Origin: Ferruginibacter sp.
Lineage (GTDB): Bacteria > Bacteroidota > Bacteroidia > Chitinophagales > Chitinophagaceae
Assembly: GCA_030655145.1 (NCBI GenBank)
Contig: JAURWD010000216.1
Coordinates: 1-44,555, forward strand
Reading direction: 5' to 3'
DNA: 44,555 nt
Numbering within the stretch: position 1 is the first letter of the stretch; every line of letters starts with the position of its first letter. The notes under the pieces are model-generated. The model was not told the origin of the DNA, ran no database searches, and saw nothing but the letters and a program-made list of their open reading frames with translations. The position numbers and the translations under genes are program-made. Positions 13,077 to 20,715 of the stretch are shown here, in pieces.

Positions 13077-14237
13077 ATGAAAACATCAAAACTTACAAGG
13101 GAGAACTATGTTTTCCCGGGAACGACATACGCATTGCTGATCCTATTTATAATCCTTTTCGCCGCTTGTAAAAAAGACCTGGCACCAACGCCGGAAAATG
13201 ATCGGCTTGCGGTTGGGCAATCAGCTAACGGAAAGGAAATTCTACCGGTGATCAATGTGCTCGCGGGAGGCTCTATCCAGGCAGCTGTGAATGCGGCTAG
13301 TGGGCCCACGATCATCAAGGTGGCAGAGGGTACCTACCGGGAAGCCATCGTTGTAGAAAAACCTGGTATACAGATTATTGGAGACGGGGAAGTTATTATA
13401 GACAATCCAGGAGGAGCTAACGACGGAGTCAGGGTTCGGGATGCCGGAGATGGATTTGTGCTCAAACACGTTACCATTCAAAACTTCATCCGATATGGTG
13501 TCATCATGATCCGGGCAGATAATTTCGTGCTCGACCATGTGATCACTATTAACGACGGAGAATATGGCCTCTTCCCGATCAGGTGTAATAATGGCATCAT
13601 TTCCCATTGCGTTGCCACCGGACATACTGATTCAGGCATTTATGTTGGGCAATCTTCAGACCTCGAGATCATGCACTGCACGGCGTATGGCAATGTTAGT
13701 GGATATGAAATTGAGAATTGCAGTCGCGTAGTGGCGTCGTTTAACAAAGGATACGATAATGCAGCGGGTGCGCTGGTTTTTCTTCTGCCCGGGCTCAACG
13801 TAAAAACGTCGACAGATATAACGCTCTCAAATAATAATTTTTCCAATAACAACCGGCCAAATTTTTCACCACCCGGATCCGGCTTTGAAAATTACATCCC
13901 TTCTGGATCAGGAATTTTGATCGTTGGGTCAAATAATACGGTGATTGAAAAAAACATTGTGAACAATAACAATTTTGTGGGCATCGCTACCGTAAGCACC
14001 CTGGTGCTTGGCGCTCTTGCAGGAATTCCGCCTGCAGATATCCTCGCAGATATTGAACCCGACCCCGATGGAGTGCGCATTATCCAAAATAGCGTAAGGG
14101 GTAACGGCTCTGCCCCGCCTGCAGGTCTCCCACTGCCTGCTGCAGATCTTTTGTGGGACGGATCAGGAACAAACAACTGTTGGAGCGATAACAAGTATTC
14201 AACTTCGTTCCCTTCCGCCTTACCCGCCTGTAACTAA
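13077..14237 (+). CDS. Right-handed parallel beta-helix lipoprotein
   Basis: A 386-residue predicted surface lipoprotein. The N-terminus has a 12-residue polar lead, a hydrophobic stretch LLILFIILFAAC (lipobox FAAC, lipid on Cys31) and an acid-poor spacer. From about residue 62 the sequence is a right-handed beta-helix: GGSIQAAVNAASGPTIIKV is the usual pectin-lyase-like opening, followed by repeated 20-25 residue coils such as VLDHVITINDGEYGLF, HTDSGIYVGQSSDLEI and SGYEIENCSRVVASFNKGYDN. This parallel-helix format is shared by polysaccharide lyases and NosD-type proteins, but I see no catalytic signature and cannot name a substrate. It has a strong Shine-Dalgarno and ends at a clear terminator, so it is monocistronic. 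Confidence 0.85.
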   Translation: MKTSKLTRENYVFPGTTYALLILFIILFAACKKDLAPTPENDRLAVGQSANGKEILPVINVLAGGSIQAAVNAASGPTIIKVAEGTYREAIVVEKPGIQIIGDGEVIIDNPGGANDGVRVRDAGDGFVLKHVTIQNFIRYGVIMIRADNFVLDHVITINDGEYGLFPIRCNNGIISHCVATGHTDSGIYVGQSSDLEIMHCTAYGNVSGYEIENCSRVVASFNKGYDNAAGALVFLLPGLNVKTSTDITLSNNNFSNNNRPNFSPPGSGFENYIPSGSGILIVGSNNTVIEKNIVNNNNFVGIATVSTLVLGALAGIPPADILADIEPDPDGVRIIQNSVRGNGSAPPAGLPLPAADLLWDGSGTNNCWSDNKYSTSFPSALPACN

Positions 14238-14285
14238 AAATGATGAGTAAATAACCTGGTTGAGGCAAGATCACAGGAAATTTTG

Positions 14286-14334
14286 TCCCTGGCAGCACCA
14301 AACCAGGTGCTGCCAGGGATTGATATAATTTTTT
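14286..14334 (+). terminator. Rho-independent terminator after the beta-helix lipoprotein
   Basis: A perfect 14-base-pair stem, TCCCTGGCAGCACC (14286-14299) with GGTGCTGCCAGGGA (14306-14319), closes a 6-base loop. It is followed by TTGATATAATTTTTT. The T run is ten bases from the stem, so the oligo-U tract is interrupted but the hairpin is very stable. It separates the lipoprotein gene from the peptide/MNIO pair, which therefore needs its own promoter. Confidence 0.85.
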
Positions 14335-14408
14335 CGACCCTGCAACCCTTTTCTTTAAACTGCTGTCAGTAGGTTGAGTACCACTCACATCATCAAAATT
14401 CTATAACG

Positions 14409-14573
14409 ATGAAGCTTTCTAAATCTATTCTCCAGGCAATGGTAATTGCCGTAACTGTTGGCACAATTTGTTCCTGCGAAAAACCATCCGTGGATGCAGA
14501 AAAGAAAACCGCTACAGAAAAATCGAAATCCGTAAATCCACCGGAAGGTTGTCCAGCCTGCGGAATGGGATAA
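14409..14573 (+). CDS. Candidate chryseobasin-like MNIO-class RiPP precursor peptide (54 aa)
   Basis: A short gene, ATG 14409 to TAA 14573. The peptide begins MKLSKSILQAMVIAV, a hydrophobic leader with C21-S-C23, has a polar Lys/Glu/Thr-rich middle, and ends GCPACGMG (C48, C51). An N-terminal LSKSILQA block with a terminal Cys-Pro-x-Cys-Gly-Met-Gly matches my recollection of the chryseobasin-related precursor family modified by DUF692/MNIO enzymes. The next gene, 13 bases downstream, is exactly such an enzyme. The expected chemistry is oxidative cyclisation or rearrangement at the C-terminal cysteines, by analogy with ChrA/ChrH of Chryseobacterium. The hydrophobic leader could also pass as a weak lipoprotein signal. 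No separate protease, exporter or partner protein gene is adjacent. Confidence 0.8.
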   Translation: MKLSKSILQAMVIAVTVGTICSCEKPSVDAEKKTATEKSKSVNPPEGCPACGMG

Positions 14574-14586
14574 CAAATTCGAAACA

Positions 14587-15717
14587 GTGGGTAAAATTCA
14601 TGCGGCCATTTCCTTTAATCTGGATGAGCACATTGTAGCTGCCGCCCTGCCCCTGTTTGAGACTGAAAAGGTATCCGCAATTGAATGGTCGTTCGATACC
14701 CTTTATAAAGTGCCCGACATACCCGGTTGGTTTGTTGAACTTTTGCAGGCCTTCGGCAATGAACATCGTTTGATCGGACATGGTGTGTACTATTCTCTTT
14801 TTTCAGGATCCTGGTCGCCGGACCAGGATAAATGGTTGAAGCATCTCGAAAAAATGTGCGATTCATTCAGGTTTGATCACATTTCAGAACATTTCGGTTT
14901 TATGACCGGTGAAAATTTTCACCAGGGCGCGCCATTACCCATACCCTATACACCATCAACTTTAGCCCTTGGCCGGGACCGGTTGAACAGGATCTATCAG
15001 GCCTGCCAATGCCCGGTGGGACTGGAAAACCTTGCTTTTGCTTATTCATTGGAGGAAGTGAAACGGCATGGCGTATTTCTCGAAGAACTGGTTTCGCCGA
15101 TAAATGGATTCCTGATCCTCGACTTGCACAATGTGTATTGCCAGGCAGTGAATTTCCAGGTTTCCCCGGAGGAACTGTTAAACTGGTACCCGCTGGAACG
15201 GGTGCGGGAAATGCATATTTCCGGCGGAAGTTGGGAAGATTCTACAATTATTCCCGGCAAACAGATCAGGCGGGATACACACGACGATTCGGTGCCGGAA
15301 GAAGTTTTTGTCTTGTTGGAAAAAGCAATAAGGCTTTGCCCGAATGTAAAATTTGTGGTGCTTGAACAGTTGGCAAATGGCCTGAGCAGCCCGGCGAAAC
15401 AGGCAGGTTTCAGGGAAGATTTTGGCAGAATGGAATCCATTGTCGCAAACGCCCATGATGGAAATGCCCGGCTTTTAAATGATTTTTTACCACACGGATT
15501 CAATCCACCGGGTACACCCGTTCATGATACTCAATTAAGCGAGCAGCAGCTTACCCTATCCCGCATTCTTGAGCATGCAGAAGGTTATGAGCAAGCGCGG
15601 CAACAGCTGGAAAGCTCAAGTCTTTCAAACACCGCCTGGCAGATCGAGCATTGGGATCCCTCCATGTTGCAGGCCGCGGTTTCCATTGCCCAAAAATGGA
15701 AAAATGGTTTTGCGTAA
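14587..15717 (+). CDS. DUF692 / MNIO-family iron oxidase, RiPP maturase with C-terminal extension
   Basis: A 376-residue multinuclear non-heme iron oxidative enzyme predicted to modify the peptide encoded just upstream. The TIM-barrel DUF692 core (about residues 3-300) carries the expected metal-binding pattern: H65 in IGHGVYYSL, E101-H102 in ISEHFGF, E147 in VGLENLAF, D179 in LDLHNVY with H181 beside it, H210 in EMHISGG, D230 and H232 in RRDTHDD, and E260 in VVLEQL. About 75 further residues (302-376, ending WDPSMLQAAVSIAQKWKNG) extend beyond typical DUF692 proteins and may do the job of a separate partner protein. The only canonical start after an in-frame stop at 14533 is the GTG at 14587. 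It converges with the amine oxidase gene, 3 bases away. Confidence 0.9.
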   Translation: MGKIHAAISFNLDEHIVAAALPLFETEKVSAIEWSFDTLYKVPDIPGWFVELLQAFGNEHRLIGHGVYYSLFSGSWSPDQDKWLKHLEKMCDSFRFDHISEHFGFMTGENFHQGAPLPIPYTPSTLALGRDRLNRIYQACQCPVGLENLAFAYSLEEVKRHGVFLEELVSPINGFLILDLHNVYCQAVNFQVSPEELLNWYPLERVREMHISGGSWEDSTIIPGKQIRRDTHDDSVPEEVFVLLEKAIRLCPNVKFVVLEQLANGLSSPAKQAGFREDFGRMESIVANAHDGNARLLNDFLPHGFNPPGTPVHDTQLSEQQLTLSRILEHAEGYEQARQQLESSSLSNTAWQIEHWDPSMLQAAVSIAQKWKNGFA

Positions 15718-15720
15718 AAA

Positions 15721-16983
15721 TTAAATTTCACCTCGATTTTTTTTGAAGTGTTGTGCGGCCTCCAGTGCAGTGAAAAATGCTGCTTCTACCGTTCCGGGAT
15801 GTCCACCATTATAGAGTGCCTCACCCGCAAAAAAAATTGTGTCTTCAATGGGCGTGCTAAATGATGTTTGTGCCGCCCGTGTGCCAATCATCGCATAGCT
15901 GTAACCCCCATTGACGTAGCTGGTTTTCTGCCAGTTAAAAACTTTTGCCCATTCCAACTGCTGGTGTAATTCAGCAATGTCGATGTTGTAGAGTGTTGCT
16001 AATGAAGAGAGACCTTTTGTCACCAACTCCTCATCATCTAAATGCGAAAGAGCAGCAGCTGCCGGACCACCAACCCACCCGGTCATTAAAGGGTTTTTAG
16101 AAGGAAGTTGTGTCCACCAGGTGGGAAAAACTTCGTCGCTTAATATGAAGACCGCGTTCGTTTGCCAGAATGGTGTTTTGAATTTCAGAACCAGCTTTAT
16201 TACGGCGCCGAAGCCAATATCATTTGCAATCTCTGTTTCGAAGGGGAGCTTCGGTTCGAACTGAAGAGAAGTTTTACCAAATTGCAGCATCGAAATGGGA
16301 ACGGTTACAAGCACCTTGCTGGCCATAAATGCGGCCCCGGTAGTCGTCGTAAGCGTAACACTTCCCGGCTCCCACCGAACTTTTTGCACGGCAGTATTGG
16401 TGTTAACTCGTACCCCCTCAGCTTTTAATTTTTCGTGGAAATAATTGATGAGTGATTGATATCCACCCCGAACGCGGTAGTTGTCCTGCTCTTCAGCTTG
16501 CCACTCTTTGAGTGTCCCTTGCACACTTGCCCTGGCCACATCTGCCAGGTCAAAACCTGCCAGGTATTTGACTACCTGCCTGCGCAACGCCTCATAACGT
16601 GGACTGCTAAAAGATTTCATCAATAGTTCTTGCATGGTCATGTCCTTTTCGACCTCTTCCATTTTTTGCAGGAGGTCATCCCATCCGTCCGTCATTTCAG
16701 TTACCGCGGAAAATTTCTCCTGCTCATGCCGGAACATTTTGCCCGAAATTTTCACCGGTTTTATGCCGGCTTCTTTTAACAGCGTTAACGTAATGGGCAG
16801 GTTTCCATGTACAAACTCAGCCCCTGCTTCAATGATTTCGCTCTCATGGCTGAGCGAAAAAATGCGGCCGCCAATGCGATCGTTCGCTTCCAGGATAGTT
16901 ATCTCATAAAATGACGTGAGTTCCCGGGCTGCAAGCAGGCCGCTGGCACCAGCCCCGATGATGAGAAGTGTTGGTTTGGTCAT
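15721..16983 (-). CDS. Flavin-containing monoamine oxidase-type FAD oxidoreductase
   Basis: A 420-residue FAD enzyme of the amine oxidase family, which oxidises amines to imines with release of hydrogen peroxide. The N-terminal dinucleotide-binding motif is LLIIGAGASGLLAARELT (G10, G12, G15) followed by ILEANDRIGGRIFS, the family signature with the arginine pair. The C-terminal FAD block is DTIFFAGEALYNGGHPGTVEAAFFTALEAA. The middle part contains the substrate domain with GGYQSLINYFHEKL. No signal peptide is seen, so it is probably cytoplasmic. The substrate (monoamine, polyamine or other) is not evident. It ends three bases from the MNIO gene on the opposite strand; involvement in peptide maturation is possible but unsupported. 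Confidence 0.9.
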   Translation of the reverse strand: MTKPTLLIIGAGASGLLAARELTSFYEITILEANDRIGGRIFSLSHESEIIEAGAEFVHGNLPITLTLLKEAGIKPVKISGKMFRHEQEKFSAVTEMTDGWDDLLQKMEEVEKDMTMQELLMKSFSSPRYEALRRQVVKYLAGFDLADVARASVQGTLKEWQAEEQDNYRVRGGYQSLINYFHEKLKAEGVRVNTNTAVQKVRWEPGSVTLTTTTGAAFMASKVLVTVPISMLQFGKTSLQFEPKLPFETEIANDIGFGAVIKLVLKFKTPFWQTNAVFILSDEVFPTWWTQLPSKNPLMTGWVGGPAAAALSHLDDEELVTKGLSSLATLYNIDIAELHQQLEWAKVFNWQKTSYVNGGYSYAMIGTRAAQTSFSTPIEDTIFFAGEALYNGGHPGTVEAAFFTALEAAQHFKKNRGEI

Positions 16984-19556: not shown

Positions 19557-19940
19557 TTACAGGACGAGTTGTTGGAACAGACTGGATAAGGTCGCGGCAG
19601 GATCAACACAAAAGCCAGGATGAACTTTCGAAGTCTGCACAACGGTACTACGCGTTGCCGTGAGCCAGCGAAAACGGGCCGCATTTTCCAGTTTCCCGAT
19701 CGGACCTGATTTATCTTCACCTGCGCTTATGCGCAACAACGCGTTTAAGGCTTCGGTGACAGCGACAACGTCTAACTTCTCGCAAAATGTTTGCAGGCGC
19801 AAAGGTTCGATGTGAATCTTTGCTGCTAAAAACGCCGGCTTGGAACAATACAAGATCACACCCACGTTCATGAATTCTTCCCGCTCCACGCGGGGAACCA
19901 CGCGGATGACTGCATACTCAAATAAGTTTTGTTCCTGCAT
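19557..19940 (-). CDS. DUF3037 domain protein
   Basis: A 127-residue protein of the DUF3037 family, recognised from FEYAVIRVVPRVEREEFMNVGVILYC near the N-terminus and the closing RSTVVQTSKVHPGFC. The family has no assigned biochemical activity. Its start overlaps the end of the HipA-like kinase gene by 23 bases in another frame, so the two are translationally coupled. DUF3037 and HipA-like genes are paired in many bacteria, which suggests a shared function and makes DUF3037 a candidate partner, target or antidote. None of this can be proved from sequence alone. Confidence 0.88.
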   Translation of the reverse strand: MQEQNLFEYAVIRVVPRVEREEFMNVGVILYCSKPAFLAAKIHIEPLRLQTFCEKLDVVAVTEALNALLRISAGEDKSGPIGKLENAARFRWLTATRSTVVQTSKVHPGFCVDPAATLSSLFQQLVL

Positions 19941-20715
19941 ACAGCGCTTCTTTTACAAAAATTTGAGAATTGGCAAAACGGGTTTCCAAAAACTGCGTGT
20001 ATACTTCACGGTGAGCATCAATGCCTTCAAAGTGATCATCATCGGCAAGCCAGTCTGCGGGAATCAACTGAACGATATTTCGTATTTGTGTATTGGTCAA
20101 CAGAGAATGAAAAGCGGTATCTACTTCTTCCAGCAGCGAAGCCTGCGGAAGTAACACATGGTCTTTCACCAGTGAGAAGGGCCGCAATGCCTGCTCTTCC
20201 CAATTCTGCCAGTTATGATGAAAATACAGACAGGCGCCATGATCGATGAGCCAAAGCTCCTTATGCCACGACAACATATTTGTATTACGTACTGTGCGAT
20301 CCATATTGGTCAGGAGGCAGTCCAGCCAAACAATTTTCGAAGCAAGTAATGGCTCCACGGTGGTAACCGCAGGATCAAAACTGATGGAACCGGAGAGGTA
20401 ATGCAGGGCAACATTTAGCCCGACGCTGGCTTTCAGCAGGTCCTGGATCTCTTCATCAGGCTCAGTGCGTCCGAAAGCGTTGTCGACATTCGCGAAAACA
20501 ATTTCCGGCACCTGTAAACCCAATGCACGAGCAAGTTCCCCACCGATCAACTCTGCAATCAGTGCTTTCACCCCCTGCCCTGCTCCCCTGAACTTCAATA
20601 CATATAAAAATCCGTCATCGGCCTCAACGATCGCAGGCAGTGAGCCACCTTCCCGCAGTGGCGTCACATACCTGGTAACATTTACAGTTCTTATCTGGGG
20701 AATAACTTCAGGCAT
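19918..20715 (-). CDS. HipA-like serine/threonine kinase family protein
   Basis: A 265-residue HipA-type protein. The ATP-binding strand VLKFRGAGQGVKALIAE provides K41. The catalytic loop is WLDCLLTNMDRTVRNTNML with D139 and N144, and the metal-binding segment is LWLIDHGACLYF with D158. It is shorter than E. coli HipA (about 440 residues) and lacks an N-terminal subdomain, as usual for the HipA-like proteins found beside DUF3037. No HipB-type helix-turn-helix antitoxin is next to it. Classical HipA phosphorylates glutamyl-tRNA synthetase and causes dormancy; whether this shorter form does so is unknown. It overlaps the DUF3037 gene by 23 bases. Confidence 0.88.
   Translation of the reverse strand: MPEVIPQIRTVNVTRYVTPLREGGSLPAIVEADDGFLYVLKFRGAGQGVKALIAELIGGELARALGLQVPEIVFANVDNAFGRTEPDEEIQDLLKASVGLNVALHYLSGSISFDPAVTTVEPLLASKIVWLDCLLTNMDRTVRNTNMLSWHKELWLIDHGACLYFHHNWQNWEEQALRPFSLVKDHVLLPQASLLEEVDTAFHSLLTNTQIRNIVQLIPADWLADDDHFEGIDAHREVYTQFLETRFANSQIFVKEALYAGTKLI

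Follow-up and report, generated by a model that had tools for sequence, protein, structure and literature searches.

The closest described relatives of the locus analysed here are pairs of a short ribosomal peptide and its MNIO (DUF692) enzyme from Bacteroidota. In the published report (PMC12636315), the enzyme DybH acts without a partner protein on the CPACGMG end of its peptide DybA, causing a shift of -4 Da with formation of a macrocycle and a hydantoin, and the same -4 Da shift is described for ChsAH of Chitinophaga sancti and HymAH of Hymenobacter gelipurpurascens. The host lipoprotein pathway attaches lipid to a cysteine inside the DybA sequence (PMC12636315). In a GFP test the C-terminal motif was enough for DybH, and the published view is that recognition of this motif alone relaxes selection on the N-terminal part; the DybAH product showed neither methanobactin- nor bufferin-type UV-vis absorbance (PMC12636315).

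The locus in our window (the whole stretch of DNA that was analysed, 44,555 nucleotides) is a dyb-type, chryseobasin-related DAG-RiPP system, i.e. a member of an already described peptide class and not an uncharacterised minimal system. What appears to be new is the link of the precursor promoter to a sigma factor and the conservation of the signal peptide, both suggested by comparison of sequences. We consider it highly probable that this is a dyb-type operon whose peptide receives a ring from the MNIO, is lipidated at Cys23 and is transcribed with the help of an ECF sigma factor (Table 1).

Table 1. Features of the precursor-MNIO locus, with positions in the window.
Feature	Position	Strand	Remarks
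Hairpin, 13-bp G+C-rich stem, terminator-like	14287..14318	+	between beta-helix lipoprotein gene and precursor unit; T-run 14329-14334
ECF-sigma-type promoter element TGCAACC-N17-GTCA	14341..14368	+	40 nt between element and ATG
Precursor gene	14409..14573	+	54 aa; ATG 14409, TAA 14571-14573; NF050125 ChrA_rel_RiPP
Predicted lipoprotein signal peptide, residues 1-22, MKLSKSILQA...ICS	14409..14474	+	unusually conserved sequence
Cys23 codon, predicted lipidation site, lipobox I-C-S-C	14475..14477	+	by pattern; lipobox Cys of DybA has the same residue number
Core CPACGMG, residues 48-54	14550..14570	+	predicted MNIO oxidation site; chemistry from PMC12636315
MNIO (DUF692) gene	14587..15717	+	376 aa; GTG start; DybH orthologue
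C-terminal helical region, residues 315 to 373	15529..15714	+	AF2 model; hallmark of the ChrH subfamily

The initial annotation had described a 54-codon gene ending GCPACGMG, 13 bases before a DUF692 gene and with no other gene in the unit, and this layout holds. Thirteen bases separate the precursor stop codon from the GTG of the MNIO gene, a start supported by its alignment with that of DybH, and the two genes, without a third, are followed by a convergent amine oxidase gene on the minus strand (15721-16983) whose end lies 3 bases past that of the MNIO gene. The strong terminator proposed upstream stands only in part: the region 14275-14340 folds well (-33.5 kcal/mol, z -6.6), but the T-run begins 10 nt past the stem and the hairpin is absent from the output of a consensus terminator scan. 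Immediately 5' of the hairpin lies a beta-helix/NosD-like, lipoprotein-like gene (13077-14237), and on the minus strand at 19557-20715 overlapping genes for a HipA-like kinase (PF20613) and a DUF3037 protein (PF11236) possibly form a regulatory or toxin-antitoxin pair. Among the 40 largest families of neighbouring proteins, none except the MNIO was common to the window and its relatives, and no ChrI (DUF1772) gene was found in the two-gene unit and the seven neighbours scanned.

The assignment of the peptide to the MNIO RiPPs was right, as were its CPACGMG core and the absence of a partner gene. In a search against RiPP precursor models, NF050125, the NCBIfam model of chryseobasin-related MNIO RiPPs, recognises it with 62.8 bits (cut-off 40), residues 1-54 covering model positions 1-56 of 56. 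DybA scores 61.1 bits with this model; we identified it in the genome of Dyadobacter crusticola DSM 16708 (L085), where M26/D27, A46 and the 13-residue LysC fragment TRTLDPCPACGMG match the published description (PMC12636315). The LSKSILQA-type leader that had been ascribed to chryseobasin precursors belongs to the chryseobasin-related family, but two peptides of ChrA proper (L196 and L197) have the signals MKIPAILMASLLAV and MKIPALLMASLLAV. The exact pattern CPxCGxG-stop, to which the GCPACGMG terminus belongs, occurs once in the 5.3-Mb genome and not at all in its reversed control, and revealed no further MNIO substrates. For the LysC fragment SVNPPEGCPACGMG we calculate an [M+H]+ of 1318.52 unmodified, 1314.49 after the -4 Da shift and 1328.51 if methylated.

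A loose pattern finds a lipobox cysteine in all 88 precursors that were collected, a stricter one in 79 of the 88; in the window peptide, lipobox and signal peptide were assigned by pattern only. The close vicinity of Cys21 to Cys23, shared with locus L050, is unusual and counts against our main reading. The surface-export signal of Bacteroidetes, C-x-K-(D/E)2 after the lipobox cysteine (described in PMC5080379), was found in 13 of 88 precursors vs 3 of 56 background lipoproteins, which is suggestive only, and was rejected for the window peptide as its CEKPS does not match.

The enzyme matches PF05114 with 120.7 bits (cut-off 25), the sole match in the genome, and is 57% identical to DybH over its full length (215 of 375 columns). 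With the ChrH model NF050165 it reaches 382.7 bits, below the cut-off of 600, which counts against our main reading, although DybH itself likewise remains below at 385 bits. H65, H102, E147, D179, H181, N182, H210, H232, D233 and E260, which we take to be the metal ligands, are invariant in 18 of 18 aligned sequences including that of the window, in keeping with the metal-binding positions noted earlier in the DUF692 protein. Most of them fall within the region alignable to TglH (8hci), and TglH followed by MbnB and 3bww are also the closest PDB folds to the AlphaFold (AF2) model. This model (mean pLDDT 88.9) consists of a TIM barrel and C-terminal helices (315-330, 334-342 and 358-373) in a region present in all 18 aligned sequences, and as modelled the enzyme belongs to the MNIOs (PF05114) and therein to the ChrH subfamily, which has a C-terminal helical bundle fused to the barrel.

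The peptide is conserved beside the enzyme: among the best 80 of 291 related loci in public genomes, 76 have a precursor ending in CPxCGxG upstream on the same strand and three more a peptide ending CLACGMG, CLSCGMG or CQGCGMG, giving 79 of 80 and showing that the proline of the core is not invariant. The one locus of these 80 lacking a precursor beside the enzyme is L090. Two precursors occur in 11 of the 76 loci and three in one family genome, where some of the extra ones end CPPCGRG; upstream members of tandems before a single MNIO (L004, L007, L018, L031) end in some cases CPPCGRG or CITCGRG. An MNIO relative from another family of the order (L119, G434:C76, 1-1706) adjoins a frame, truncated at the edge of its contig, of at least 67 residues that ends CPPCGKG; its product may be a larger protein substrate of the sort reported for Melainabacteria. 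No neighbour gene is conserved beyond the enzyme, the commonest family of proteins of at least 90 residues being found in 17 of 81 loci. The distribution is patchy: 20 of 294 genomes in a sample of the family contain a precursor above the cut-off, and 3 of 88 genomes of the genus the locus (exact motif with adjoining MNIO), the latter counting against our main reading. A tree of 77 enzymes mostly tracks the host families, and in it the window forms a group (99/94) with L046 and two other genomes of the genus; 29 of its 74 inner branches are open and its bootstrap is still unsettled, and four of the 80 loci were omitted since their crude translations contain a stop (L041, L052, L092, L098). Horizontal transfer is disfavoured by this tree and by the grouping of the window with its own genus and L046, so descent with loss is likelier.

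Three control lipoproteins have signal peptides that are clearly less conserved in sequence than the signal peptide of these precursors. Identity over residues 1-17 amounts to 47-56% between orders and 60-72% within them, vs 11-28% for the 12 residues after the lipobox cysteine and 91-96% for the core (orders were assigned by hand, which placed 77 of 88 peptides and left 11). The pattern MK[LIV][SP]..[LIV][LI].[AT] matches 82 of 88 precursors and none of 56 background lipoproteins, and three proline-less precursors outside the set that defined it match if N is allowed at position 2. When the same genomes are compared in pairs, the precursor signal peptides resemble each other more closely than the BamD signals do in 135 of 153 pairs, the GldD signals in 103 of 105 and the GldH signals in 169 of 171, based on 18, 15 and 19 shared genomes, respectively. 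For this comparison lists were merged by hand from a first extraction lacking 1 of 21 BamD, 10 of 21 GldH, 3 of 20 GldD and 2 of 20 precursor rows and a second lacking 6 of 20 BamD and 8 of 20 GldD rows; these lists omit G192, which nearly duplicates G031, as well as the GldD of G320, which is doubtful, and the GldH rows are the 20 residues preceding the cysteine instead of true starts. Most of the seven codons that were checked show synonymous variation (position 8 has six Leu codons, and Lys5 varies least, with AAA in 63 of 68), so the constraint looks to be one on the protein. Since the C-terminal motif suffices for the enzyme in the GFP test (PMC12636315), the conserved leader may be read by something other than the MNIO.

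Elements consisting of AAC and GTC so spaced are the usual form of ECF-sigma promoters. For a flavobacterial ECF motif, a CGT box has been described (PMC9723704). In the regions upstream of the first precursor (the window and 79 loci), C[AC]AC[CG]-N17/18-GTC occurs in 30 of 80, vs a mean of 0.8 and a maximum of 5 in 300 first-order resamples, and the spacing is sharply defined, with 17 in 19 cases, 18 in 11 and any other value from 8 to 30 in at most two. On the other hand, the strict element is missing from 50 of the 80 regions, including that of DybA. A housekeeping Bacteroidetes promoter was rejected, with 5 of 77 regions matching vs a resample mean of 3.1. Precursors in genomes lacking the sigma factor discussed below (L004, L007, L008, L018, L019) have CGTCT boxes about 45-65 nt upstream and possibly a different ECF factor. 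The Saprospiraceae and Dyadobacter precursors have the related elements CCCAACC and TACAACC, which may belong to other factors. In 93 genomes of the genus, TGCAACCNTT-N14-GTCW gave 73 matches vs 12 in the reversed control (summed rows), although a single genome supplies 14 of these 73 and, among 30 loci inspected, several lie within long frames. The window genome contains two such matches (control: one), one before the precursor and one, at 4567-4594 of L235, before a gene for an LVIVD-repeat lipoprotein, whereas the looser TGCAACC-N17-GTC shows little excess there (10 vs 6).

The LVIVD lipoprotein gene lies two genes after an ECF sigma gene of the window genome (G000:C171:2499-3056) that has its own copy of the element (L235, 2450-2476), and we regard this C171-type sigma factor as probably the best candidate activator of the precursor promoter. 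It is encoded with a protein ending in an outer-membrane-barrel domain, for which Pfam shows only OMP_b-brl_2 and which, judged by gene order, is a probable anti-sigma factor. A search of 25 genomes gave sigma orthologues, 63-100% identical, in 12, and in all 12 CAAC[CGT]-N17-GTC lies 14-22 bp before the start. The operon that follows has a further copy in front of it in 10 of the 12 loci, the exceptions being G272 and also G149, where the contig ends soon after. All nine family genomes with both a precursor and a sigma orthologue have the element 31-43 nt upstream of the precursor, vs none of 11 without an orthologue within 400 nt (loose matches occur at 492, 1086 and 1142 nt). Sigma orthologue and precursor element thus agree in 20 of 20 genomes, with a Fisher value of 6e-6 that overstates independence because the genomes are related (by genera 5 vs 5, 0.008). 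A real precursor occurs in 22 genomes of the family, and the 20 counted here are all of these except G192 and, because of a contig end, G271. In eight of the nine genomes the sigma site and the precursor site share their fifth base, which is C in G321 and G in the remaining seven, all of them from other genera; the window genome is the exception, with T in the sigma site and C in that of the precursor. An element that is shared and found only together with the sigma gene, in 20 genomes of one family, would place the precursor in the regulon of this factor. In G339, G367 and G126, three genomes of the window's genus that possess the sigma orthologue, the exact motif revealed no precursor, so the factor would not be dedicated to the peptide and would have other work too. 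Our literature search, which reached subscription journals only to a small extent, found no published link of the dyb-type family to a sigma factor; in the main text of PMC12636315 neither 'promoter' nor 'regulat' occurs, and 'sigma' occurs once.

The peptide could be as described with another sigma factor reading its promoter, the link to the C171-type factor then reflecting shared genome ancestry only. The genome contains 21 Sigma70_r4_2 matches, 20 of them above the cut-off and some response regulators by sequence, and the CCCAACC and TACAACC elements might likewise point to other factors. However, only one of 18 sigma paralogues has the element nearby, at 100 bp, many having another box instead, and the agreement in all 20 genomes extends to within the genus, where G000 and G321 have both sigma gene and element and G320 has neither, its -10 reading GTT. 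We therefore regard this alternative as unlikely, though worth keeping in mind.

With the C171-type factor as activator, the route of the window peptide can be sketched; we infer its -4 Da chemistry, the triacylation of Cys23 and the action of the sigma factor from characterised orthologues and sequence comparison. In the cytoplasm, a four-electron oxidation (-4 Da) of the C-terminal CPACGMG of the 54-mer by the MNIO alone would link C48 to C51 in a macrocycle that contains a hydantoin, with one thiol left free and no S-methylation. After export, Lgt would attach diacylglycerol to Cys23, signal peptidase II would cut, and N-acylation would follow, leaving a membrane-anchored lipopeptide of 32 residues with the ring at its far end. 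Given a sigma factor with a barrel-domain probable anti-sigma factor, it is probably an envelope signal that triggers production of the peptide. The initial annotation proposed that product and processing might be unlike those of known systems; this is not supported, since the arrangement is published for DybAH, ChsAH and HymAH with its -4 Da shift (PMC12636315), and the argument from the lack of protease and exporter genes overlooked the lipobox at Cys23, for which the ordinary lipoprotein machinery serves. This question was already answered in print by the passage of DybA through the host lipoprotein pathway (PMC12636315).

A role in metal handling like that of bufferins or methanobactins, in which thiols of the product would bind a metal, copper or some other, at the membrane and metal would be sensed by the sigma factor, would find parallels in RpoE7 of S. 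meliloti, which controls a DUF692 operon (PMC6180224), and in the sigma and anti-sigma genes of Buf1 clusters (PMC12452194). Yet the enzyme scores 101.7 bits with the bufferin maturase model NF050167 (cut-off 310), DUF2063, DoxX and DUF2282 are absent from the seven neighbouring proteins scanned, and the UV-vis properties of the DybAH product cited above do not fit, which makes this function rather improbable. More doubtful still is that the ring-bearing lipopeptide is the output, perhaps also the input, of an envelope-spanning signalling circuit. In it, a sigma factor held by the barrel-fused anti-sigma factor would switch on the precursor gene, the circuit would read the modified tail at the membrane, and the signal peptide would do more than direct secretion, being recognised in its own right as a tag for the timing of export or as a peptide signal that is released. 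A true chryseobasin, S-methylated with +10 Da, perhaps with a ChrI-like partner elsewhere and secreted via signal peptidase I, would share the CPACGMG core and the MNIO subfamily, but is very improbable in view of the 12.5 bits with the model of chryseobasin proper (NF050124, cut-off 50), the lipobox cysteine, and an enzyme tree that, with ChrH not in it, contains DybH and Dyadobacter, Chitinophaga and Hymenobacter, genera with -4 Da enzymes (PMC12636315). That the locus is a decaying, non-functional remnant is hardly credible: it is patchy in the genus (3 of 88) and its enzyme branch is long (0.96), but frames, invariant active-site columns, core, lipobox and promoter are intact.

Chemistry and lipidation of this family are already published, whereas PMC12636315 calls its function unclear. 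The proposed sigma link opens this question to experiment: the promoter is sharply defined and has a candidate sigma factor, and knowing what activates that factor would show at what times, and perhaps for what reason, cells produce the peptide. That the signal peptide is conserved fits oddly with the published idea of relaxed N-terminal selection (PMC12636315).

Compared with known systems, the locus is most similar to the dyb cluster, with which it shares the order of precursor and MNIO, the lack of a partner, the CPACGMG end, a lipobox cysteine at residue 23 and the same NCBIfam models with near-equal scores. It differs from dyb in genus and order, in its unlike linker sequence, in the extra Cys21 and in its promoter TGCAACC-N17-GTCA, whose strict form DybA lacks upstream. 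ChsAH and HymAH, for which a -4 Da shift is likewise published, belong to this Bacteroidota subfamily too (PMC12636315) and were compared through other species of their genera, their own sequences being outside our sets. Chryseobasin (ChrA/ChrH/ChrI of Chryseobacterium) has in common the core motif and the MNIO subfamily with the C-terminal helical bundle, whereas ChrA is longer and has an SPI signal and no lipobox cysteine, the product is S-methylated with +10 Da, and the conserved operon is larger (PMC10214503, PMC12636315). TglH, MbnB and the bufferin and oxazolin MNIOs share the TIM-barrel fold and most of the presumed metal-site residues but work with separate partner proteins and perform other chemistry, and MbnB and TglH are described as having no C-terminal helical bundle (PMC12636315).
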